Assembly (NCBI GenBank): GCA_017428035.1
Contig: JAFRRR010000061.1
Span: 1-64,000, forward strand
Length of the DNA stretch: 64,000 nt
Reading direction: 5' to 3'
Source of the DNA: Bacteroidales bacterium
GTDB taxonomy: Bacteria > Bacteroidota > Bacteroidia > Bacteroidales > UBA932
This document shows positions 1,820 through 18,521 of the stretch, one piece after another. The position numbers and the translations under genes are program-made. Position 1 is the first letter of the stretch. Each line of letters begins with the position of its first letter. The notes beneath the pieces are model-generated. The model was given only the letters and a program-made list of their open reading frames with translations. It had not been told where the DNA came from and did not search any database.

Positions 1820-1844
1820 TGCCCGCTCGGTGCAGACGCCTCCG
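1820..1844 (+). repeat. 25-bp core repeat, copy 3
   Basis: It has one change from the consensus (GACGCC for GATGCC) and begins 8 nt after the HicB-like stop codon. It opens the first unit of the tandem repeat. Confidence 0.9.
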
Positions 1845-1851
1845 ATAATTA

Positions 1852-1882
1852 TTTGCAATCCCAGATAGGATTACTATCTTTG
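1852..1882 (+). promoter_or_regulatory. Promoter of candidate RNA B1
   Basis: A perfect Bacteroidota promoter: TTTG 1852-1855, 19-nt spacer, TATCTTTG 1875-1882. Confidence 0.8.
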
Positions 1883-1887
1883 CATAA

Positions 1888-2060
1888 ACACCCGAAAGGG
1901 GCTGCCTTGGCAAAAAATTTGACAGCCCCAAAGATTATGATTATCGTTTAACTATGATAATCACAATCTTGATAGATAGTAATTTGAACATTACGTTCAC
2001 CAAAAGGAGGTTTTCGGGTACCTTCCCATTAGGGGTCGGCTTGCCGGCTCCTTTTGTTTT
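1888..2060 (+). ncRNA. Candidate small RNA family 2, copy B1
   Basis: About 170 nt from the promoter at 1852 to a terminator with a 10-bp stem (AGGGGTCGGC 2031-2040 / GCCGGCTCCT 2043-2052, with G-T pairs) and TTTTG. Hairpin 1, GGGGCTG/CAGCCCC (1898-1929), is the same in both copies. Hairpin 2 (1931-1970) has a stem of 15 positions with one mismatch around a 10-nt loop; it is the variable part between the copies and shows paired changes. A 79-aa frame starts at 1954 but runs through the terminator and is not kept in unit 2. Confidence 0.7.
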
Positions 2061-2217
2061 GCACTACTATCTCTTATTCAGGTGTAGGCTATGCGCCGTC
2101 AATTATGTCGTGTGCAAATATATGCACGCACACAGCCCTCAAACGAGACTTTTTCTCAAATCCTCCCATATTGAGAGCCTAAAACAGAAATAGTTTTTCC
2201 AGAAATGGAAATGACAG

Positions 2218-2242
2218 TGCCCGCTCGGTGCAGATGCCTCCG
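2218..2242 (+). repeat. 25-bp core repeat, copy 4
   Basis: Identical to the consensus; it is the junction between tandem units B1 and B2. Confidence 0.9.
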
Positions 2243-2249
2243 ATAATTA

Positions 2250-2280
2250 TTTGCAATCCCAGATAGGATTACTATCTTTG
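2250..2280 (+). promoter_or_regulatory. Promoter of candidate RNA B2
   Basis: TTTG 2250-2253, 19-nt spacer, TATCTTTG 2273-2280, the same as in unit 1. Confidence 0.8.
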
Positions 2281-2285
2281 CATAA

Positions 2286-2459
2286 ACACCCGAAAGGGGC
2301 TGCCTTGGCAAAAAATTTGACAGCCCCACGGATAGCGGCTATCTCTTAATGATGATAACCACTATCCTAAAGAAGATGAGTTTGAACATTACGTTCATCA
2401 AAAGGAGGTTTTCGGGTACCTTCCCATTAGGGGTCGGCTTGCCGGCTCCTTTTGTTTTT
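2286..2459 (+). ncRNA. Candidate small RNA family 2, copy B2
   Basis: Same architecture as B1. In the variable hairpin, GGATAGCGGCTATC is opposed by GATAACCACTATCC with two mismatches. Against B1 three stem pairs change on both sides (A-T to G-C, T-A to A-T, A-T to G-C), and one B1 mismatch becomes a G-C pair. The terminator (2429-2450 then T4) is unchanged. A 45-aa frame at 2349-2486 shares the residues LNITF and KRRFSGTFPLG with the B1 frame, but its N-terminus tracks the changing hairpin, so I favour RNA over peptide. Confidence 0.7.
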
Positions 2460-2616
2460 GCACTACTATCTCTTATTCAGGTGTAGGCTATGCGCCGTCA
2501 AGTATGTCGTGTGCAAATATATGCACGCACACAGCCATCAAACGAGACTTTTTCTCAAATTCTCCCATATTGAGAGCCTCAAACAGAAATAGTTTTTCCA
2601 GAAACGGAAATGACAG

Positions 2617-2930: not shown

Positions 2931-3026
2931 GGATTCGTCGAAGGGGAATTCGTTTGAAGGGATGACAACCCTCCCAATAATAATTGGTCCGAGCCTCACT
3001 TCTAAAGCCGTTACCTGACGGCTTTT
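2931..3026 (+). ncRNA. Candidate small RNA family 1, copy 2
   Basis: Almost identical to copy 1 across the transcribed part, including the hairpins AGGG-ATGACAA-CCCT and CCAAT-AATA-ATTGG and the terminator stem AAAGCCG/CGGCTTT (3004-3025). Its terminator abuts the stop codon (3025-3027) of the convergent gene on the other strand. Confidence 0.65.
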
Positions 3027-3539: not shown

Positions 3540-3564
3540 TGCCCGCTCGGTGCAGATGCCTCCG
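3540..3564 (+). repeat. 25-bp core repeat, copy 6
   Basis: Last consensus copy found. Palindromic element copy 3 follows. No further copy was seen downstream. Confidence 0.9.
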
Positions 3565-3794
3565 CTTGCAATGCTTTCCGGGCAAAAATCTGCCCCTAAA
3601 AGCATTCAAGCTCCGGACTATATCTGCACCTTCGCTCTCTCACCACCGGTCCCGCAAAAGCGCCCCTCTCCCACTTCGTGAAGGTAAACCTTTCAGGCAG
3701 CGCGACCGACACCCTCCTTAAAGCCTTTCGGTGACATTCATCCCCCGCCGGGAGCTCCCGTGTCGCCACATTAGCTCTAGCGCTTTTGCGGGAC
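3549..3794. repeat. Palindromic repeat element P, copy 3
   Basis: The inner stem has decayed (CCCCTAAAAGCATT), but the outer arms 3649-3663 and 3780-3794 are now perfectly complementary over 15 bp. The one mismatch in copies 1 and 2 is thus repaired here, which hints that the outer pairing matters. No sRNA follows this copy; the GIY-YIG gene ends 31 bp further on, in the opposite orientation. Confidence 0.85.
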
Positions 3795-6798: not shown

Positions 6799-7740
6799 TT
6801 ATTTCAGCTTTGAAACAGGACCTTTTAGCGCCAAGATAAAGCGTTTAGTGTTTTCAAGGTCAGCAGCAATTATGTAGGGCCACTCTTCTTCGGGATTATT
6901 GTAGCCACCTGGAAATTCCGTCCTGATGGATGTTGTACGGTATCCTTCAAGCTCTTCCCAGTTAAGGCCTGGACCGTATGCATTGTCTATTTGCTCTCTA
7001 TCCTTCATTAATTGACGAAGAATCTTGAGATTCTCTTCTTCAGAACCTTTCCCCTTGTCTATTCGTAATTCACAACGCACGATGTCTTTTGTTACCCAGA
7101 GTGTCCACTGTATGCCCCCAATACCAGTTCCGCTTGAGATAAAACTATCTTTTGTGGCTGATGAATTCTTGAATGCCGGCATCGATTTGTCGGCCTTGAA
7201 TTGCTTCAGTAGTTCGCCCCAGAATTTGTATCTCATTTCGTGACGACGTGTCTCTGCGCGTTTGATCTCTCCCTTCTCCCTTGCTTCCTTTGAGGGTGCC
7301 GACTTGATGGTAAATAGAGGGCCGAGAGGGGATTCTCCAATTCTGATTAACTGGAGTTCCAACAGATAGAAGTCACAGCCGTTGTCGGTCTCGTTCAGCC
7401 AGTTAACAGCTTCGACATGTTCCTGTTTGGCTCTCTCCACAATCCATATAGCAACCTTCGCATCAAAAGCCGTTCGGTAAGTGATAATCTTGCCGAGGTG
7501 ATCATGGTTTGAATCCCCAAATTGGTTTTCAATGACAACTCCAGAGCCATCTTCCAATTCTGCTTGAATATCTACACGAAAATTCTCAGAGGTTTGTTCT
7601 GTAGAAGGATTGACCAGTTTCAAGTGTATAGTTTCAGAAACATAGTCCAAGTTGTCTGCGAGCCACGGTGTGAAGTCACCTGATTCGCTTTTGAAATGGC
7701 GGCGGAGACTGATTGTCTCGATCTTACCTATTGTACTCAT
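6799..7740 (-). CDS. DUF4268 protein with PD-(D/E)xK-like nuclease motif
   Basis: A 313-aa protein. The N-terminal half has FRVDIQAELEDGSGVVIENQ (55-73), with Asp57 and Glu71-x-Gln73 placed as in PD-(D/E)xK nucleases, followed by the family-typical DSNHDHLGKIITY. The C-terminal half matches DUF4268 (RYKFWGELLKQF, then WTLWVTKDIVRCELRI). Such proteins are commonly found near restriction systems; the fold is shared with Holliday-junction and restriction nucleases. It begins 9 bp after res, so it is cotranscribed. Substrate and role are unknown. Confidence 0.78.
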   Translation of the reverse strand: MSTIGKIETISLRRHFKSESGDFTPWLADNLDYVSETIHLKLVNPSTEQTSENFRVDIQAELEDGSGVVIENQFGDSNHDHLGKIITYRTAFDAKVAIWIVERAKQEHVEAVNWLNETDNGCDFYLLELQLIRIGESPLGPLFTIKSAPSKEAREKGEIKRAETRRHEMRYKFWGELLKQFKADKSMPAFKNSSATKDSFISSGTGIGGIQWTLWVTKDIVRCELRIDKGKGSEEENLKILRQLMKDREQIDNAYGPGLNWEELEGYRTTSIRTEFPGGYNNPEEEWPYIIAADLENTKRFILALKGPVSKLK

Positions 7741-7749
7741 ATTCGCGAT

Positions 7750-10700
7750 TTAATCCATTGATTTCATAATATCCAGAAGTGTCTGGTAGCTGTCCACTTT
7801 GTGATAACGCACATTGGAGGTGGACACATCATTGAAGAGCTTTTCTGCACAGTCTATCTTGGCCTTCTCTATAGGCTTAAGGTTCATAGAGTCCATTGAG
7901 CCTTTGGTCTCAGCTATGAAGAAGATGTGCTTGACAGTGCCCTTGTTGAAGGCTATCGCCCAGTCGGGAGAATAGCTGCCTACCGGTGTAGGAATATGGA
8001 AACTGCGTGGCAGCTTGGCATATACGCAGACCTCAGAAGCTTCGTCCAAGGCCTTAGCGAACTTCTCCTCAACACTCTCCTTGGCATAGCCATCAGTAAA
8101 AACGTAGTCCTGGATGCTCTTGTGGCTTTGGTAAGCCTTGCTGACCGGCTGCGAAGACTTCTCCTTGGTGAAGATGGTGCTGTCGTACACCTGATCAATC
8201 TTGTCATACTGGATGTGCTCCACAATCATCGTGGCCTTCTGCTCCTTGATAATACGGGAGACATTCTTGATGAACTCCTCGGGGTTATTCCGGAAGAGCT
8301 GCAGTTTGGTAGGACGGATGGTCCGAAGTATCTCCGCAGCGGTTTTGCGTGTAAGCGTAGTCTTCCTGGCAACGTCACCCACCAGATCATACTTTACAGA
8401 AGATGTGCTGACGGTAGACAGAGACCGCGTAGTCGTCTGGGTATTGCCATAGGTATCCACTTCTTCCTGCTCACCCTTTGTCATTACGTATTTGAGTTCA
8501 GTAACGACCAATTCCGCGTTGATGGCATTGACGGCCTTCTCAATGAGTTCTTTGCTGTCATAGTGAACCGTGTAGACGTACTGGTGGTTGATTTCATTCC
8601 AGAGGGCCTGGAATTCCTTCTTGTAGAAGTTGTCATTCAGCTTGTTCTCAAAGGAAGCAGATTCATTGGCATTCTCCACCATGTTCTCCAACTCAACGGA
8701 TTCGTCAAAGAGCGAACGGATGAGCTTGTGTACCTCGTCTGCAATTGGAGCTATGCCAGGGAAAAGCGGCATCAGCTTACCAGCGTCGCTGTCTTTCTTG
8801 TACTGCTCAGTAATCTGGAGGTTGTTGTCCACGTAGCCATAGCCCATCAGGTATCCGGTAATCATCATAGCATCCTGCTCGTTGATGGTGTAAGGCTGGC
8901 CATCTTTCTGCACCACCTTGCCAGTGAAGTACTCGACAGTAGCCTTGTTCGGACGTTCACGAAGTGCTTCGCGAGTTTCATTCTGGAGACCTTTCACGAA
9001 GTCTGAATAGGACTCGTTGGCAATGACGGTAAGAGCGTTGACTTCCTGCACAGCTTCTTCTCCCAGCTCCTCCATGTCCATGCGGTTACCGTTCTGGTCC
9101 ACACAGATGCGAAGTCCACGGCCAACCTCTTGTCGCTTGGCAATGGCCGAGGATGCGTGACGCAGCGTGCAGATCTGGAAAACGTTGGGGTTGTCCCAGC
9201 CTTCCCGAAGGGCAGAGTGCGAGAAGATGAAGCGCGTGGGCTCATCAAAGCTCAGGAGACGCTCCTTATTCTTAAGAATGAGGTCGTAGGCAGAAATATC
9301 GTCGGAAATGTCGCTCTTGCGTCCGGTCTCACTGTTAATCGCGCGACCTGTCTTTTTATCTATAGAGAAGTAGCCATTGTGAACCTGGTCCGGCGTAAAG
9401 CGGCGGAGATACTCCTGGTAGTCATCCTCAAATATTGACAGACGCTCGTTCAGGGCGTTCGCATACTCCTCTTCAAAGATCTTCCAGAAAGGTCCGTGAA
9501 CTTCGTTGCCATCGTCATCATACCCTTTGTAATTCTTCACCTCATCGATGAAGAACAGGGATAGTGTCTTGATGCCTTTCTTGAAAAGCTCACGTTCTTT
9601 ATCCAGATGGGAAGCGATTGTCTCGCGGATCTGAACACGCTGCATGGCAATCAGAGAACTGTCACCATACACTTCGCCCTTTCGAATGGATTCCCCGTTG
9701 AGGAAGACCACACGATTGGTAATCGGGTCAATTTCCGAAATGGTGTAGCCATCATATTGCGCCAAGCCCTGGGATTCATCAAAGAGCGAGTCGCCGAAAC
9801 CTAGCTTGTGCCTTTCGCGGCGAATGCCAGTCTTTCCCTGCACTTCCAGTTCGATGCGGGCCACCGGTGGCTGCGTCTTGGAAAGAAGGATATCATCCAG
9901 GTACAGGTAAGAACTGGTGCCCTTGAGATTCTTCACTTCAAAGCCCTTCACTTGGATCTTCTTGACTAGTTTCTGCTTGTAAGCATCCAGCGCGTCGAGG
10001 GCATAGATGCAGTTATGAGAAGTTTTATGGGTTGCGGAGTAGTACAGGACGAAGAGCGGCTTGAAGCGTTGCAGAGCGCGCTGTGTGGCATCACCTTCCA
10101 TCTTCTGGGGCTCATCCATGATGATGATGGGCCGGTTGGCTGAAATCACATCTATTGGCTTACGGGAGCCAAAGTCATCGCGTTCCGTGTAGATGATACG
10201 GCTGGCGCCACGGGTGGCACCTTCCTTCATATCTGTAGCAAAGGCCTGCGTGTTGATGATCATCACATTGATGCTGGCATCAGACGAGAAGGAATCCAGC
10301 TGCTGAAGGTTGGAAGAGTTATAGATGAAGAAGCGAGCCTTTTTGCCGTAGTATTCCATGAAATGGTCTTCCAGCATAGTGAAGGACTTATGCACGCCCT
10401 CACGGATAGCAATGGACGGGACTACTACAATGAACTTGGACCAACCGTAGCGCTTGTTGAACTCGAACATCGTTTTGATGTAGACATACGTCTTACCCGT
10501 ACCGGTCTCCATTTCGATGTCCAGGCCAAGACGGCCCAGGTCGTGTGACAGATTCTTGGATTCCGGAATGCTCCAGATGCGCTGCATGCCACGTACATTG
10601 GCAAGCAGCTGCTGGTCGGTGAGTTCTATGTCTGCATTGCGGTAACCAGCGTAATCTGCCTCCGTGAGCAGCATCCCAGCTGCATCTTTACCAAGGTCGC

Positions 10701-10803
10701 GCCGGTACTGGAAACCATCCCTAGACGGCTGTCCAGCAAAGATGTCAACGGTACTCTCAACAGCATCCGTCTGGTATTGCTGTATTTTGAAGTTGAATTT
10801 CAT
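7750..10803 (-). CDS. res: Type III restriction enzyme, Res subunit
   Basis: A 1017-aa ATP-dependent DNA translocase/nuclease that acts with Mod. SF2 helicase motifs are seen: METGTGKT (98-105, motif I), IIIMDEPQ (DEPQ 230-233, motif II), YYSATHK (motif III) and GRGLRICVD near the end of the second RecA-like domain. The C-terminal nuclease motif is intact: PD (946-947) and ETK (965-967) in SPDWAIAF..IAETKGS, as in EcoP15I-type Res. The length is usual for the family. The start codon is 2 bp after the mod stop, so translation is probably coupled. It looks active. Confidence 0.93.
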   Translation of the reverse strand: MKFNFKIQQYQTDAVESTVDIFAGQPSRDGFQYRRDLGKDAAGMLLTEADYAGYRNADIELTDQQLLANVRGMQRIWSIPESKNLSHDLGRLGLDIEMETGTGKTYVYIKTMFEFNKRYGWSKFIVVVPSIAIREGVHKSFTMLEDHFMEYYGKKARFFIYNSSNLQQLDSFSSDASINVMIINTQAFATDMKEGATRGASRIIYTERDDFGSRKPIDVISANRPIIIMDEPQKMEGDATQRALQRFKPLFVLYYSATHKTSHNCIYALDALDAYKQKLVKKIQVKGFEVKNLKGTSSYLYLDDILLSKTQPPVARIELEVQGKTGIRRERHKLGFGDSLFDESQGLAQYDGYTISEIDPITNRVVFLNGESIRKGEVYGDSSLIAMQRVQIRETIASHLDKERELFKKGIKTLSLFFIDEVKNYKGYDDDGNEVHGPFWKIFEEEYANALNERLSIFEDDYQEYLRRFTPDQVHNGYFSIDKKTGRAINSETGRKSDISDDISAYDLILKNKERLLSFDEPTRFIFSHSALREGWDNPNVFQICTLRHASSAIAKRQEVGRGLRICVDQNGNRMDMEELGEEAVQEVNALTVIANESYSDFVKGLQNETREALRERPNKATVEYFTGKVVQKDGQPYTINEQDAMMITGYLMGYGYVDNNLQITEQYKKDSDAGKLMPLFPGIAPIADEVHKLIRSLFDESVELENMVENANESASFENKLNDNFYKKEFQALWNEINHQYVYTVHYDSKELIEKAVNAINAELVVTELKYVMTKGEQEEVDTYGNTQTTTRSLSTVSTSSVKYDLVGDVARKTTLTRKTAAEILRTIRPTKLQLFRNNPEEFIKNVSRIIKEQKATMIVEHIQYDKIDQVYDSTIFTKEKSSQPVSKAYQSHKSIQDYVFTDGYAKESVEEKFAKALDEASEVCVYAKLPRSFHIPTPVGSYSPDWAIAFNKGTVKHIFFIAETKGSMDSMNLKPIEKAKIDCAEKLFNDVSTSNVRYHKVDSYQTLLDIMKSMD

Positions 10804-10805
10804 AA

Positions 10806-12797
10806 CTACAGGATTCTACGGATGGTTTCTTTGGAGTATGCCTGGAAGATCTGCTCGAAGTTGTCGGCCACGTTGTCGGAGGATAGGGACTTATCCCTCA
10901 TGATGAAGTAGTACGGCTTGCGCTTGGCCACGGCCGTAATTACTTCCTCATTTACATCTTCGTCAAAGCAGGCAATCAGGTAACCGTTATTCACGGAGAA
11001 AACCTCCTTCCCGGCAATTTTCTCAGTCTCAATCTTGGCGGACAGCGGAAGGTTGCACTCTAGCATTACCTGGAACAGCAAGTCCTCACCTGTACGGTCC
11101 GGTTTAACGTTGTCTTCAAAGAGCGTAGCTTCGGAAGAATCCTCCGGACGGTAGTAGACGTCCTCCATATTGCTAGTGTCCAGTTTGAGGACACGAAAGC
11201 CAACATCTAACTTAGGCTTTTCATTGTTAGCCGAAGCAAATAACCCTCCTTCATCAGTGCGAGATATCATATCCTCAAGCACCTTTTTACCGGCACGGCG
11301 GATTCGTTCTTTCCCAATCTCGCAGATATTCTTGTAGCCGGACTTATATGCTTCACTATTTTTATCAGTGACTTCAGGCAACTGAACCATGATGAATTTT
11401 CTTTTGCCATCATCTTCCGAATTAAGATAAATAACAGCGTGTGCTGTAGTCGCTGATCCAGAGAAAAAGTCAAGAATAATAGAATCGTTTCCGCCAAATA
11501 CTTGAATGAGGTAATGAATCAATGAAACGGGCTTTACATTCTCAAATACACGTTTATTATCAAATATTAATTGAACATCTTGGGTCCCTTTATTATACAT
11601 ACCTATCATATCCTTGGGCAAAAGAGTGGCGGGACAACCAAGACCATCACCAAAGTACTTCTTAATAAAAATATTCCATTTAGCAGGCTTCCCGGTTGCA
11701 TCGATCAACGTCGATGATGAATCTGTTTTTCTAAAAACCACCAAATCGTTCTTCTTCGCTTCCTCAAATGTCTCTGGAACAAATCGGTATATGTAACCTT
11801 CTTTGGGTTTAACTATTGTACCGTCTGGACAAACGATTTCATATTTCTGGTTCTTGTTTGTAGAAGCATTCTTAAAAACGAACTCTTTGCATCTAAACAG
11901 CCCTGTTTCATCTCGTTCATTATACATTTTCTTTGCATCCTCAGAAAGTGGTGCCCATAACATGGGTACATTGTTAATGTCTTTTGCATAAACAAGAACG
12001 TATTCGTGAGTTTTACTTGTATGCTTTGGCCTAATACCTCCTGCAGTAGAACAATTCCAAACCAAAGTTGCTATTCGATTATTAGAACCGAATATCTCAT
12101 TACATACATTATGCATGTTGGAGGACTCGCAGTCGTCAATTGAAATGAGAATAACACCGTCTGAACTCAGTAAATCTTTGGCAACTTTCAACCTAGGATA
12201 AATCATATTTAGCCAATCCGTATGGAATCGTCCATTACTTTCGGTGTTTTGTACAAGCTGATTACCTAAAACATCTATCTGTCCCGAGTTTCCCACATAC
12301 AGAGAAACTTCCTGAGTGAAATCATCATCATATACGAAATCACCTCCTGTGTTGTAAGGGGGATCAATATAGATAACTTTGATCTTGCCTAGGTAGTTCT
12401 CGCGAATAAGCTTTAGTACCTCCAAATTGTCTCCTTCAATATACAAGTTCTGTGTATTTTCAAAATCAACACTCCCACTACTCAAATACTTGTTTCCTTC
12501 GCTATCTGAGCCTGTGGGGGATTTTTCATCTACGCGCACCGGACGCAGGGTCATAGTGGTAGAAGTATTAGCTTTACGAATGGCTTTCTTCTTGTCCGGC
12601 CAAGTGAACTGATAACGCTCCTTGGCACCCTCAACAATATCTTTGGAAAGTTCTTGCCGGAGCAGGTCGAAATCAATAGCTTTTTCAACTTTGCCGTCAT
12701 TACCGACTCGCTCTGTTAAGCAATTAGGGAATAACTGACCAATCTTTTCGACATTGCCATCTGTGATATCCACAGTATGCATTTTCATTTTATCCAT
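10806..12797 (-). CDS. mod: Type III restriction-modification methyltransferase, Mod subunit
   Basis: A 663-aa adenine-N6 methyltransferase of the beta class: motif IV IDPPYNTGG (DPPY 145-148) comes before motif I FFSGSATTAHAV (about 430-440). The central region between them is the expected place of the DNA target-recognition domain; I cannot read the target from sequence. EGDNLEVLKLI precedes motif IV as in other Mod proteins. MDKMKMHT offers ATG codons at residues 1, 4 and 6. It starts 10 bp after the DUF4365 gene. Mod methylates the host site and guides Res. Confidence 0.93.
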   Translation of the reverse strand: MDKMKMHTVDITDGNVEKIGQLFPNCLTERVGNDGKVEKAIDFDLLRQELSKDIVEGAKERYQFTWPDKKKAIRKANTSTTMTLRPVRVDEKSPTGSDSEGNKYLSSGSVDFENTQNLYIEGDNLEVLKLIRENYLGKIKVIYIDPPYNTGGDFVYDDDFTQEVSLYVGNSGQIDVLGNQLVQNTESNGRFHTDWLNMIYPRLKVAKDLLSSDGVILISIDDCESSNMHNVCNEIFGSNNRIATLVWNCSTAGGIRPKHTSKTHEYVLVYAKDINNVPMLWAPLSEDAKKMYNERDETGLFRCKEFVFKNASTNKNQKYEIVCPDGTIVKPKEGYIYRFVPETFEEAKKNDLVVFRKTDSSSTLIDATGKPAKWNIFIKKYFGDGLGCPATLLPKDMIGMYNKGTQDVQLIFDNKRVFENVKPVSLIHYLIQVFGGNDSIILDFFSGSATTAHAVIYLNSEDDGKRKFIMVQLPEVTDKNSEAYKSGYKNICEIGKERIRRAGKKVLEDMISRTDEGGLFASANNEKPKLDVGFRVLKLDTSNMEDVYYRPEDSSEATLFEDNVKPDRTGEDLLFQVMLECNLPLSAKIETEKIAGKEVFSVNNGYLIACFDEDVNEEVITAVAKRKPYYFIMRDKSLSSDNVADNFEQIFQAYSKETIRRIL

Positions 12798-12807
12798 ATC
12801 AATTGTA

Positions 12808-14604
12808 TTATTTCCAAAACTTGTGCATAGGCGATAACTTGAACCCCGTCTTCTGATCTTTATTCAAGGTTTTGTAATAAGCCTTAGCCTCTTTTTTCTT
12901 TCCCAATAGTAACAGCGAGCAAATCCTATCATAAGGATCCAGTTCCTTCTGTGCAATAATCTCATCAAGTGTAGCAATCTCTTCTTTGTTGAGTTTTCTT
13001 TTTCGTCTTGTCAACTGGAGAACATCCAGTTTGCAACCATATACAGTTAGGTATGGTATAACTTGAGTGGAAAGCCATGTCGCTAATTCTAAAGCAGCCG
13101 TAAATACACGCTCATTTGCTTTTTTATCGTAGGCCAGAATCATCTTATTCAGTGTCTCGTTTGCAATCAACAGCATATGAGGATTCGTTATTGACAACTC
13201 CTTATAATCAGCAATAGTCTGTGTGAAATCAATGTTAGACAGAGAGCAGAATGCATCTATGTCTAATAAAGACATGCCTGGTATGCGATAATACTTGTCG
13301 TCGTCCTCTTTTTGATAAGTGATGATATGCCGCTTTGGATTGAAATAATCCTCAATGTCAGTCAGTTTGCTATCTTTCTCATTAGGGACTACTATTACCC
13401 TTATCTTCAAATTAGAAATGGTTAAGTCTTGATAGGCAGGCCCTTCAAGTGAATTGTTAATTCCGATGACTGGCTGATTGTCCACAAATGCTTTTTCTAG
13501 ACGCGATAAGACAAAAGCATCACTGTTTTTAAGCCCAGAGAGATCCAAGTCATCTACGATGTGTAAAGTATCTAAAAGCTTCGCTGCCCGCTGACACATC
13601 TTGTATTCTTGTTCTATCTTATCTGCATCATAATCGGCATTGCTTATTGTATAAACGGTATCTCCAATATTGAAGTGTCTGCTCTTTCCAAGTGCTGTCA
13701 GGAATTCGAGAGAAGCCATCCTTTGTCGGAGATTACTCGGTGCGGTATAATTGAAGCGCCCTTGCTGTTCATCGTTAGGCCAGGATAGTTTGATTCCGTA
13801 TGCAAAAGTAATTGAAAGGCCCTTCACTGAATAATTTATGCGGTATTTATTGAAGAACTCTCTATCATCAATCTTAATAGGATTATCAATTAACTTGGAG
13901 AAGATCATTTTGCTCCCGGATTCTTTGATGGGAATAGGCACGGGGCTGCCTTTGAACTGAGCATAAAAGCAAACCTCATTCTCGACGAACGCCTTAAGCG
14001 CATTAGCGTTACTATTCTTTTGCGAGCCTATTTTTTGTGTTGTGACTAGTATTCTTTCAACACATTTATTGCCTGATAGGTCCTTGAATGTTGGGAGCTT
14101 GATGTCTGTGAAACTTGTCTGCTTATGTGAGTCTAAATAAAAATTTGTCAATATTGTGGCGATCTCGTTCTTGTCATCTGAAGGAAAAGGTTTAAGAGTA
14201 ATGGATTTAGTATCTTGACCTTCTTTAATCTCATCGAAAATAATCTGGAGCTTAATGGGGAGAAGTGTAGAATAAAAAATCTTTCTATTGTCGTTGGGAT
14301 CAATTTCGACTACGAAGAAAAGGGCCCCTCCGTTATTTAGATAGTTTCTCAGGTCGGATACTTCAGCCTGATAGGTAATCTCATTGGTTGAAAGCGAATT
14401 GACTTCCTTCCCTTTTACCTGCGAATGAACGACTCCGAGAAGACTTTCTTTTTTCTTGCCTTTCTTTGAGTAAACAAATATATCCCCATCCCAGGATGGA
14501 AATTTATCATTCTTCTTGATGTCTTCTTTGGCATATAAGCATCTAGCAATTGCGTCTGTCACGGAACCTACAGCCAATGATTCTATGGTATCCGAATCTC
14601 TCAT
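12808..14604 (-). CDS. DUF4365-domain protein, putative nuclease accessory
   Basis: A 598-aa protein, more AT-rich than its neighbours. The N-terminus (1-130) matches DUF4365: SWDGDIFVY (Asp39, Asp41), HSQVKGKE (Gln62-x-Lys64), then DLRNYLNNGGALFFVVEID. The Asp and Q-x-K placing suggests a PD-(D/E)xK-like fold. The remainder is a long region with no named domain, in part helical (for example ADKIEQEYKMCQRAAKLLD near 330). Its ATG overlaps the last base of the DUF4391 stop codon, so they are coupled. It may be a nuclease or a sensor; neither is proven. Confidence 0.72.
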   Translation of the reverse strand: MRDSDTIESLAVGSVTDAIARCLYAKEDIKKNDKFPSWDGDIFVYSKKGKKKESLLGVVHSQVKGKEVNSLSTNEITYQAEVSDLRNYLNNGGALFFVVEIDPNDNRKIFYSTLLPIKLQIIFDEIKEGQDTKSITLKPFPSDDKNEIATILTNFYLDSHKQTSFTDIKLPTFKDLSGNKCVERILVTTQKIGSQKNSNANALKAFVENEVCFYAQFKGSPVPIPIKESGSKMIFSKLIDNPIKIDDREFFNKYRINYSVKGLSITFAYGIKLSWPNDEQQGRFNYTAPSNLRQRMASLEFLTALGKSRHFNIGDTVYTISNADYDADKIEQEYKMCQRAAKLLDTLHIVDDLDLSGLKNSDAFVLSRLEKAFVDNQPVIGINNSLEGPAYQDLTISNLKIRVIVVPNEKDSKLTDIEDYFNPKRHIITYQKEDDDKYYRIPGMSLLDIDAFCSLSNIDFTQTIADYKELSITNPHMLLIANETLNKMILAYDKKANERVFTAALELATWLSTQVIPYLTVYGCKLDVLQLTRRKRKLNKEEIATLDEIIAQKELDPYDRICSLLLLGKKKEAKAYYKTLNKDQKTGFKLSPMHKFWK

Positions 14605-15197
14605 TATAACTTTTCTCTCAAATTCTGTAATTCTTCAAACATCTCCAGCTTACGCCTTGGCTGCTTTTCGGCACGGGACTTCTTCTCCAGATCTTCAATT
14701 TGTTTAATGAGCTTGGCCCGAGCCTCATCGTAGTGAATCTGCTCCTCCAGGGTGTTGCCTTCTTCAATCTCGATATTACCCACCATCTTCACAATCCCTT
14801 CCCAAACGGCTTCCAGATCCAGACCGGCAAGGATAATCTCCGGCTCCGGCCCCCATTCGCCCGTAAGCAGCTTCGTATGGAAGATAGCCAACTGAACCTT
14901 GTCCTCAAACCTCAGCAGGAACAGCATCTTCTGCGGAATCAACTTGGACAGCAGCTGAATATTCCTGGAGTCATAGTCCTGGTTCTTAAGCAGTACCTCC
15001 AGCACATAGATGGACTCCACATTCTCACCGACCGGCAGGGCGGGAATCGTCCTGGGAGAAATCACGTTCACAATGGACATACGTGAGATGTCCTCATCGA
15101 AGCGGTCCTTCTGGGAGGAGCGCAAATCAAACTTCGCGAAGATACGAGTCTTCGGAAGGGGTTGTGAAAGTTCGGTAGATTTAGGCAGTCCAAGCAT
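14604..15197 (-). CDS. DUF4391-domain protein
   Basis: A 197-aa protein of DUF4391 type, beginning MLGLPKSTELSQPLPK. The hallmark stretch IYVLEVLLKNQDYDSRNIQ and the C-terminal coiled coil (about 160-197, IKQIEDLEKKSRAEKQPRRKL) are visible. DUF4391 genes are regular neighbours of SNF2 helicase and type III R-M genes; the biochemical role is not known to me. The start is ATG at 15197; the longer frame begins with TTG. It lies 10 bp after the helicase stop codon. Confidence 0.78.
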   Translation of the reverse strand: MLGLPKSTELSQPLPKTRIFAKFDLRSSQKDRFDEDISRMSIVNVISPRTIPALPVGENVESIYVLEVLLKNQDYDSRNIQLLSKLIPQKMLFLLRFEDKVQLAIFHTKLLTGEWGPEPEIILAGLDLEAVWEGIVKMVGNIEIEEGNTLEEQIHYDEARAKLIKQIEDLEKKSRAEKQPRRKLEMFEELQNLREKL

Positions 15198-15207
15198 AGG
15201 CAACGAG

Positions 15208-18200
15208 CTATTTGATTACAAGGAAACAGATTAGCTCGAAGTCAACGAGGCCGGTGATTTCTTTCGTAAACAAGGCTCCCTGCACTCCTTCCAGGAAGGA
15301 ATCCAAGTCGCTCTCCTCCTTCACGTTGATAATGCTGCTGATGGCGTCACCCAGCAGTTTGGAATACTGCGTCATCTTGAGCCCGTCCTTTGTCTCTTTG
15401 TTGAAGGCGTGGCAAAGAGCGGTCTGGGGTGCATTCTTACCCTTGCATAGGCTGCGGAACTTATCCAGCAGCTCCTTCGGGGCAAGATGGTTAATGACCA
15501 CGGAGCCGTCATTGCGGACATAGATGAGATAGAACGGATGGAGCCGGTTCTTCTTGTCTATATTAACACCTCTATTGCGATTCTTGAGAACGTAGATCAC
15601 GCCAGGCTCCGTGAACTCATTGTGGACCACGACAGCGTGAAGGCCGAACGGTGTGTGCTCCACATCCTCGTGCGTCTTCATGTACTCCAGCAGATCCAGG
15701 CGGAACTCGTTGAGACCAAGGTCCATGATGGACACGCCATTGTTCATATCCTCGATGTCCACCACCTCCTCCTGTAGTTTCTTCAACTGGGCCTTGCGGT
15801 ACTCAAGGTCTCCTTTCTCTTCAGGAGAGATGGGGTTATCGTCTCCGGTTGATGTGAGCACGGAAACTTTCATTCGAGCCTCAACACGGCCCTTCAGATC
15901 TATGTATTCGTCAAGTGTCATATCCGGCCAGTAGTTGACCAGCTGGATGACGTCGTTCTTGGAACCGATACGGTCGATACGGCCGAAGCGCTGGATGATG
16001 CGAACCGGATTCCAATGAATGTCGTAGTTGATAAGGTAGTCGCAGTCCTGCAGGTTTTGGCCTTCGGAAATACAGTCAGTAGCGATGAGAACCTCAATCT
16101 CTTCATTGATGTTGGGATAGACTGAATCTTTCTCCTTGGATATAGGCGAGAAGAGCGTCAGGACCTTGTTGAAGTCCAGCTTCTCCCGGAGCTTTAGTGT
16201 GCTGCGGGCCTCCACGTCGCCGGTTACAAGGGCTGTATCCATCCCATATTTTTCCTTAATGGGTCCCGCCAGGTTGTCGTAGAGATAGACGGCCGTATCG
16301 GAGAATGCGGTGAAGATAATGACTTTCTTGTTGTCACCATTGATAGGATGGGTGAACTTGTTCCGAAGGTCCTCGATGAGCTGCTGCAGCTTGCTATCGT
16401 GCTCCGGCGTGATATCGTCGAGCATCAGCTTGGTGAGTTCCAATTCTTCCTTGTCCCTGGCGAGATACTGTCGCCAAGCGGTGTAGTCCATGTCCTCCAG
16501 AGCTATCTTGTTTTTCTTGGTGCCAATGAAAGCGTCGTTGTCGGAGTCGTCGATATCGAAGTCGTAGCCGTTGGCTTCTTCTACGTCTATGAAGGAGTCG
16601 TGGTTGTCTATCTTCTGGATGGTGTTGGTAATGAGATTAAGCACTCGCTCCAGGGTGAGACGGAAGGAATTGACTGAGCTCTCAAGTCGCTTGAGCATCA
16701 AGATGCACATCAAGCGGCGGATACCCATTTCACGGCCAACCAGCGTAAGGCCAGCGCCATGGGTTTCAGGGTCAAGTTGGTATTTTGCTGCTTTGCTAGC
16801 CAGGATGAACTCGGATGGCGTGTAGATAGCCAGATTGAGCTTCTGGAGCTGGGCGAAGATTTCGTTGTAGTTGATTGCTTTCGGCAAGTCCGTGAGTGAC
16901 GGACGGCGTGATATGGGGGCAAGTCTAGTAGGGAACTTGCCAACGGCCTTAGTGTCGTAGTATGCCTCAATATGCTTACGGCTGCGGGCAATGGTCACAG
17001 AATCCAGGACCTCGAAGAAGTCGAAGCTGAGCATCCCCAGCAAGCGGTCTGTTGTGCGCTCCTCACTCGGGAGCTTTGCCCAGACGTTGTAGGATTTCTG
17101 GGCCTGACGGAAGATGTCGTCGATGGAAGACTCCGTGTTGAGGAGATTATCCATACGACGAACATCACCTTCATAAGCCAGCTGGAGCTGGTTCTTGAGG
17201 TCATTGAAGCGGTTGTTGACCGGCGTTGCAGAGAGCATCAGGACCTTGGTCTTAACGCCTGCGCGAATGACCTTGTTCATCAGGCGGAGGTAACGATTCT
17301 CACGAGGGTCTTCGTCATCATCTCCCCAGGTAAGCTTACCACCATTACGGAAGTTGTGGGATTCGTCAATAACCACCAGGTCGAAGTTGCCCCAGTTTAT
17401 CTTATCGAGCGCGATGCCGTTGGACTGACCACCATTACGTGAAAGGTCTGAATGGAAGAGGACTGTGTATGAGAGACGGTCTGCCGCAATGGGATTGGTG
17501 ATGTAGTTGTTGCGGTAGGTCATCCAGTTGTCACAGAGTTTCTTCGGGCAGAGGACCAGGACGGACTTGTTTCGGGTCTCGTAGTATTTGATGACAGAGA
17601 GGGCCGTAAAAGTCTTACCTAGACCTACGCTGTCGGCAAGGATGCAACCGTTGTATTTCTCCAGCTTGCTGATGATGGCCAGCGCAGCGTCTTTCTGGAA
17701 GTCGTAGAGTTTGTTCCAGATCTTGCTATCCTTGAAGCCGGTGGCCTCGTTGGGAAGGATGTCCTCAGAAATGTCCTCCAGGAATTCGTTGAAGATGTTG
17801 TAGAGGGTAACGAAATAGATGAATTCCGGGGAGTTCTCGCGATAAATGTTGGAGATATGGTCTATAATCTCCTCAGTGACATCTGCGAAGTCTTTGTCAT
17901 TGTTCCAGAGCTCGTTGAAGACGCGGAGGTACTGCTTTGCGTTTTCTCCGTCAACCTTGTTGACGAAGTTCATCAGATTGTTGCCACGTTCACAGCCCAA
18001 GTCTGTAGTGGTGAAGCCGTTGACCGGAGTGTAAGTGAAGACATCATCTTGTTTGACGTTGATGAAGCCCTGAAGGATGTTGTCAGTTGTGTTGGACTTG
18101 AAGCGGACCTTTTGCCGAATCCAGTCAGCACACTCTATCGCGATTGCTTTTTGGGTGAGCTGGTTACGTAGGCGGACTTCAAACTGGGAGCCGTAAAGGG

Positions 18201-18459
18201 TGCGCTCGCGGTCTATACGAGGGATGTAGAATTCCCGGCGCTGCTTTGAAGCTCGCTCTTTCAAGAAGGATGGAGCTGTGAAGATGAAGCGAAGTTCGTC
18301 AAGGCTCTCTAACTGTTCTTTGAGCTCGTTGAAAGCGTATATCGAGAAGCAAGCAGAGGCGATGCTAACCTTAGTGCCTTGCCTGAGTGTTACACGCAAG
18401 TCATCGACAAGTTTATGGTTGACATTGTCGAACAATCTGATGTCACTGTTGTCTGGCAT
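15208..18459 (-). CDS. SNF2-family helicase with PLD-like N-terminal domain
   Basis: About 1083 aa. The N-terminal segment (to about 130; KVSIASACFSIYAFNELKEQ) resembles the phospholipase-D-like domain that precedes SNF2 motors in anti-phage helicases, though no clear HxK motif is seen. The motor follows: ADSVGLGKT (about 275-283), VVIDESHNF, LSATPVNN, then EVLIATDCISEGQNLQ and QRFGRIDRIGS. It is first in the operon. ATG 18459 is chosen over the upstream TTG because the -7 box lies at 18480-18487. It likely moves on DNA for the downstream R-M or nuclease subunits. Confidence 0.85.
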   Translation of the reverse strand: MPDNSDIRLFDNVNHKLVDDLRVTLRQGTKVSIASACFSIYAFNELKEQLESLDELRFIFTAPSFLKERASKQRREFYIPRIDRERTLYGSQFEVRLRNQLTQKAIAIECADWIRQKVRFKSNTTDNILQGFINVKQDDVFTYTPVNGFTTTDLGCERGNNLMNFVNKVDGENAKQYLRVFNELWNNDKDFADVTEEIIDHISNIYRENSPEFIYFVTLYNIFNEFLEDISEDILPNEATGFKDSKIWNKLYDFQKDAALAIISKLEKYNGCILADSVGLGKTFTALSVIKYYETRNKSVLVLCPKKLCDNWMTYRNNYITNPIAADRLSYTVLFHSDLSRNGGQSNGIALDKINWGNFDLVVIDESHNFRNGGKLTWGDDDEDPRENRYLRLMNKVIRAGVKTKVLMLSATPVNNRFNDLKNQLQLAYEGDVRRMDNLLNTESSIDDIFRQAQKSYNVWAKLPSEERTTDRLLGMLSFDFFEVLDSVTIARSRKHIEAYYDTKAVGKFPTRLAPISRRPSLTDLPKAINYNEIFAQLQKLNLAIYTPSEFILASKAAKYQLDPETHGAGLTLVGREMGIRRLMCILMLKRLESSVNSFRLTLERVLNLITNTIQKIDNHDSFIDVEEANGYDFDIDDSDNDAFIGTKKNKIALEDMDYTAWRQYLARDKEELELTKLMLDDITPEHDSKLQQLIEDLRNKFTHPINGDNKKVIIFTAFSDTAVYLYDNLAGPIKEKYGMDTALVTGDVEARSTLKLREKLDFNKVLTLFSPISKEKDSVYPNINEEIEVLIATDCISEGQNLQDCDYLINYDIHWNPVRIIQRFGRIDRIGSKNDVIQLVNYWPDMTLDEYIDLKGRVEARMKVSVLTSTGDDNPISPEEKGDLEYRKAQLKKLQEEVVDIEDMNNGVSIMDLGLNEFRLDLLEYMKTHEDVEHTPFGLHAVVVHNEFTEPGVIYVLKNRNRGVNIDKKNRLHPFYLIYVRNDGSVVINHLAPKELLDKFRSLCKGKNAPQTALCHAFNKETKDGLKMTQYSKLLGDAISSIINVKEESDLDSFLEGVQGALFTKEITGLVDFELICFLVIK

Positions 18460-18479
18460 TTCGGTAATGCTTAATCCTT

Positions 18480-18487
18480 CAAATTTA
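18480..18487 (-). promoter_or_regulatory. -7 box of the defence operon
   Basis: On the minus strand TAAATTTG; transcription would start near 18474, 15 nt before the ATG. It is the only clear promoter for the whole seven-gene operon. Confidence 0.65.
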
Positions 18488-18497
18488 CGAAAAAACA

Positions 18498-18521
18498 ATT
18501 TCCGTTTTTGAAAACAGAAAT
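18498..18521. promoter_or_regulatory. 24-bp palindrome, candidate operator
   Basis: ATTTCCGTTTT-TG-AAAACAGAAAT: two 11-bp half-sites with one mismatch, lying 11-34 bp upstream of the -7 box and so across the -33 region. This is where a dimeric repressor would block the promoter. A related half-palindrome is at 3498. No regulator gene is obvious in the operon; the HicB-like HTH protein at 1411 is one candidate only. Confidence 0.55.

Follow-up and report, generated by a model that had tools for sequence, protein, structure and literature searches.

Sequence evidence for a tandem pair of genes from a previously undescribed family of folded noncoding RNA in rumen bacteria

Adjacent and closely similar small RNA (sRNA) genes are familiar from OmrA and OmrB, which differ in one central part and whose seed is the 5' end common to both. 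Folding back of the 5' end onto the 3' end is likewise familiar from the mRNAs of hok-type type I toxins. In Bacteroides, FopS and GibS form a paralogous sRNA family, and the same work names OmrA and OmrB as tandem sibling sRNAs (PMC11697453). FopS has a 5' seed that is single-stranded and, after it, one Rho-independent terminator hairpin; it binds the RRM protein RbpB and base-pairs with susC-like mRNAs (PMC11697453).

In the 64,000-nucleotide stretch of Bacteroidales DNA analysed here (the window), sequence comparison identifies two neighbouring copies, B1 and B2, of a folded noncoding RNA gene whose family, the B-type RNA, is previously undescribed (Table 1). Of the kinds already known, the paralogous sRNA families of Bacteroides come closest, FopS especially. 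Like FopS and GibS, the B-type RNA is a multicopy family at dispersed loci in one lineage of the same phylum, with a sigma-ABfr-type promoter and with conserved and variable parts among its paralogues (PMC11697453). It differs in that its 5' end is paired and it folds into seven helices, where FopS has a seed plus one hairpin. FopS also has a partner of the RRM class, RbpB, whereas a search of this genome for RRM-1 proteins (PF00076) gave no match and a Bacteroides control was positive. Neither a target nor a protein partner of the RNA was found. The 6S RNA model RF00013 matched nothing in 26 genomes of the genus, but the Bacteroides control was negative too, the model being weak in this phylum. 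OmrA and OmrB share with B1 and B2 the arrangement of adjacent, closely similar genes with one differing central part, but they are much shorter and unrelated in sequence and structure. The hok-type mRNAs resemble the B-type RNA in their long-range closing stem, their alternative partner for the 5' strand and their tandem paralogues, but the B-type RNA has no conserved coding frame.

Table 1. Coordinates in the window of the tandem units, the modelled RNAs and their parts
Feature	Position	Strand	Remarks
Tandem unit B1, 398 bp	1820-2217	+	starts with the 25-bp half of dispersed repeat A
Tandem unit B2, 399 bp	2218-2616	+	
Predicted Bacteroidota-type promoter	1852-1882	+	TTTG 1852-1855, 19-bp spacer, TATCTTTG 1875-1882
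B1 structured RNA, 202 nt as modelled	1886-2087	+	covariance models R1, R2; fold z -6.4
B2 structured RNA	2284-2486	+	covariance models, fold
P1 5' strand CACCCGAA	1889-1896	+	partner 2077-2084; alternatively ACCCG with 2015-2019
P2 'constant' hairpin	1898-1929	+	stem 1898-1904/1923-1929
P3 hairpin, paralogue-specific element	1931-1970	+	outer 1931-1936/1965-1970, inner 1938-1945/1956-1963
P5 5' strand AGATAGTA	1974-1981	+	B1 and B2 differ here too
P4 hairpin	1985-1999	+	stem 1985-1989/1995-1999
P6 hairpin	2006-2025	+	loop holds invariant CGGGU, 2015-2019
P7 hairpin and U-rich run	2032-2060	+	stem 2032-2039/2044-2051; terminator-like, enclosed by P5
P5 3' strand TACTATCT	2065-2072	+	
P1 3' strand TTCAGGTG	2077-2084	+	one C-A mismatch in this genome

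Collecting further copies through sequence search, a check on the sequence-only reading of this locus, recovered 26 copies, all in one uncultured genus of rumen Bacteroidales and spread over 16 of its 26 genomes, which are metagenome assemblies. The copies were gathered by DNA search of relatives, with two covariance models and with cmsearch over the fetched loci. Copy number is 1-4 per genome, and tandem copies occur in this genome (G000) and in G001, G004 and G015. The loci are flanked by unrelated genes with no partner gene common to them, and their genomic position varies between clades. Among the flanking genes are a FimA-like lipoprotein (Pfam PF06321) and others that we take, from reading their sequences, to be proA, cysS, secA and ribosomal genes; in four genomes, at L047, L050, L051 and L054, the RNA adjoins the same FimA-like large lipoprotein gene and faces its 3' end. 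Some loci carry less than the full fold: five shortened copies (L047:1578-1710, L052:8712-8849, L053:8454-8594, L055:8310-8452 and L056:8313-8387) are missing P4, P6 and the 3' strands and end soon after a P7-like hairpin. They keep P2, P3 (only part of it in L056) and that terminator-like hairpin.

At family and order level, with about 390-400 genomes each, the covariance models found no convincing copy outside the genus. The sole marginal match there, in G290, is a bare terminator-like hairpin, and a BLAST match in G077 has only a terminator end in common. The phages, plasmids and viral contigs searched gave no match. Rfam release 15 has 0 matches in the window at gathering score and only chance-level matches to positions 1800-2640 at a permissive E<=5, and a literature search for covarying RNAs of rumen Bacteroidales found nothing. 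We are highly confident in the family itself, and it adds a well-supported structured RNA, absent from Rfam, to a group in which few sRNAs have been characterised.

The consensus fold of about 200 nt has seven helices, P1 to P7, and is seen once the alignment is extended past the hairpin and U-run that the sequence-only reading took for the end of the RNA. P1 joins the two ends of the RNA, P2 and P3 are hairpins, and the long-range helix P5 encloses P4, P6 and P7. The supposed terminator thus sits inside the covarying fold, and because P5 encloses it the RNA should extend to about 2087; P7 and its U-run may stop transcription part of the time. In alignment A4, made from 18 copies without use of structure, 87.7% of the cells pair and both partners have changed in 18 pairs, including six of the eight that make up P5. 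Its covariation score of 0.145 compares with 0.086 after shuffling and 0.03-0.06 when the strands are slid by 1-3 columns, and none of 500 shuffles reached it. The slid-strand control accounts for the relatedness of the copies, whereas the shuffle control ignores it. Covariation beyond both controls places the B-type RNA among structured noncoding RNAs. P1 and P7 vary too little for covariation to show; P1 also has many mismatched cells, none of its pairs has changed on both sides, and its C-A mismatch is found in many copies, including B1 and B2. Against dinucleotide shuffles the short version of the RNA folds with z of -6.1 (B1) and -4.0 (B2) and the 202-nt version with -6.4 and -5.2, and folding energy is low in every copy tested.

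The sequence-only reading is supported in other respects: the stems are kept by paired changes, and the predicted promoter motif accompanies every copy. TAnnTTTG lies immediately upstream of the RNA in 26 of 26, and TTG follows 18-20 bp further upstream in 22 of 26, where chance would give about 7% per copy. The spacer sequence between them differs from locus to locus and shows no conservation. Judged by its sequence the motif is the Bacteroidota sigma-ABfr pattern, and its occurrence in all copies favours an RNA gene, probably transcribed from this promoter, over a DNA repeat.

The ACCCG of the 5' end has two mutually exclusive partners, the 3' end or the internal CGGGU. For full-length RNAs, 18 of 18 minimum-energy folds pair at least 3 of the 5 bases of ACCCG with the 3' end; for RNAs cut at the U-run, ACCCG pairs with the internal CGGGU in 14 of 18. 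Going by these folding energies, the length of the 3' end could choose between two RNA shapes: the full-length RNA would hold ACCCG on its 3' end, and an RNA ended at the U-run would hold it on CGGGU. This is a direct structural prediction.

In total, 29 substitutions and one indel separate B1 from B2, and 22 of the 29 are packed into the 53 bp at 1931-1983 (P = 5e-16 per fixed 53-bp window, times about 346 windows). Our recount therefore agrees with the earlier description of near-identical tandem units whose differences concentrate at one hairpin, and it recovers the same three P3 pairs changed on both sides from B1 to B2: 1932/1969 from A-T to G-C, 1936/1965 from T-A to A-T and 1940/1961 from A-T to G-C. 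The range first given for the change, 1931-1971, covers the hairpin, but the divergent block is wider than one hairpin; it extends to 1982 and takes in the 5' strand of P5. The idea that structure is kept also holds in part. Covariation keeps the stems across the 18 aligned copies, but three P3 pairs formed in B1 are lost in B2 (1931/1970 C-T, 1938/1963 C-A and 1941/1960 C-A). The P5 of B2 is bulged, and together with the broken pairs this could mean decay.

What finds no support is the proposal that P3 is under diversifying pressure. Family-wide identity is 0.70 in P3, 0.57-0.63 in the P5 strands and 0.50 in the loop of P2, the fastest-changing part of the family; the differences between B1 and B2 do spare the P2 hairpin, as its description as constant implied, but across the family its loop is anything but constant. 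The closest genome, G018 (gyrA 98% to G000), has both the B1 and the B2 version of P3. Over 42 columns the P3 of B1 is unchanged between the two genomes (0 changes), against 6 changes in the 20 columns of the P2 loop. Since P3 changes more slowly than the P2 loop and is stable between G000 and G018, diversifying pressure is unsupported.

Of the 23 sites that vary within 1931-1982, 22 sort by paralogue, identically in both genomes, whereas most differences in the P2 loop follow the species and are common to both copies, so the flanks have been homogenised within each genome. Outside P3, B1 and B2 are 99% identical. The P3 of B1 and that of B2 resemble other family members (0.78-0.82) more than they resemble one another, and a search for the P3 sequence elsewhere in this genome found none beyond B1. 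On these comparisons the paralogue difference in P3 and the P5 5' strand is old and stably inherited. Either two specialised versions are kept by selection or a diverged block has escaped conversion: the weaker P3 and bulged P5 of B2 lean to escape, and the near-perfect conservation of each P3 version in G018 leans to selection. Such tandem paralogues offer a natural way to ask if selection can keep one domain of an RNA distinct while gene conversion evens out the remainder. Two features lift this case above the routine: flanks that evolve in concert are cleanly separated from P3 versions that stay stable, and the 5' end has two partners that exclude each other.

We believe, with somewhat more confidence than doubt, that this is a multicopy, genus-restricted gene for a structured noncoding RNA of about 200 nt that has its own promoter, works as a trans-acting regulatory sRNA and is homogenised among its tandem copies. 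For the trans-acting function taken by itself, which is the most likely mode of action, our confidence is even or slightly better. Gene conversion or unequal crossing-over would keep the tandem copies alike, except that P3 and the P5 5' strand would have escaped in two old, stably inherited versions, which may differ in function.

It is possible, though on the whole we think it unlikely, that the P3 difference has no function and that conversion simply proceeds up to the edges of an over-diverged block, leaving an island of old divergence. This would account for the near identity of the flanks, for each P3 being closer to other family members and for the poor fit of the B2 P5 strand to the homogenised 3' strand. 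Against it, each P3 version is nearly unchanged in two genomes, as two versions in use would be, an argument that is weak at a gyrA identity of 98%. We consider it improbable that diversifying selection acts on P3 as an element of specificity or recognition while preserving its structure. The differences are sharply clustered in P3 and P5, P3 is consistent by paralogue in two species despite the homogenised flanks, and several P3 versions exist within the tandem arrays of G001, G004 and G015, all of which suits such an element. However, the family as a whole conserves P3 better than the P2 loop or P5, and each P3 version is almost the same in G000 and G018, so there is no sign of rapid diversification, and P3 specificity has no known partner.

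Returning to our preferred sRNA gene, a bolder version of it would make these paralogues a bistable RNA of a new class, in which ACCCG is switched by where transcription ends and selection keeps partner-specific versions of P3 and P5 apart in the tandem copies despite gene conversion. We find this quite doubtful. We are similarly sceptical of a DNA element, that is, a non-autonomous MITE- or REP-like mobile repeat with inverted ends (ACACCCGAA / TTCGGGTGT) and hairpins in single-stranded DNA. The B-type loci do resemble such repeats in being dispersed and palindrome-rich, with inverted ends and with locations that change between clades, and dispersed REP-like repeats A lie alongside. Yet they carry their own conserved, spaced promoter outside the inverted ends, their internal long-range helix covaries, and there are only 1-4 of them per genome.

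An mRNA for a small hydrophobic peptide, resembling a type I toxin and with its start hidden by the 5'-3' fold, is very unlikely. Many copies do contain an ORF of 42-50 aa that begins within P3, and the fold-back with alternative pairing recalls such mRNAs, but the nearly invariant sequence of P6 and P7 is read in three frames among the copies, and L040, L041, L042, L043, L049 and L050 have no such ORF or a much shorter one. A retron-like noncoding RNA, with a closing a1/a2 stem and msr/msd hairpins, would fit a stem that joins the 5' and 3' ends with hairpins after it, but it is nearly refuted by the absence of reverse transcriptase, with no RVT_1 match in this genome despite its two copies, RT matches in only 5 of 26 genus genomes and none recognised among the neighbour genes of the RNA loci.

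Downstream of the RNA, positions 2085-2185 of the window are conserved in several species and hold a palindrome, GACAAGTATGTC, followed by GCAAATATAT, as well as a TCTCAA...TTGAGA hairpin. A candidate antisense promoter, TATATTTG, on the minus strand near 2117-2124 was rejected, its TTG-box spacing being wrong by eye. Repeat A is a dispersed, near-palindromic, REP-like repeat of about 120 bp, with full copies at 236-360, 2617-2741 and 3540-3665, half copies at 653-679, 1820-1844 and 2218-2242, and up to 14 matches per genome within the genus. It often adjoins toxin-antitoxin-like, DUF1016-like or defence-like genes, and in G010:C75 (L133) five copies on the same strand lie 0.7-1.5 kb apart, like a cassette array. 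The window also has a defence island at 6799-18498 on the minus strand, with a PDC-S11 candidate, genes for type III restriction (Res) and modification (Mod), and an HKD+SNF2 helicase. A second small RNA-like family, 'S', lies at 549-650, 1125-1218 and 2931-3026 on the plus strand. Its layout is a TAnCTTTG promoter, a GGGATGACAACCC hairpin, a variable hairpin and a strong terminator, and the variable hairpin shows paired changes (TCAAGGCAACTTGA, CCAATAATAATTGG and TTAACATTTGTTAA). Further copies of 'S' are found at L037, L040, L049 and L134, often beside the B-type RNA.
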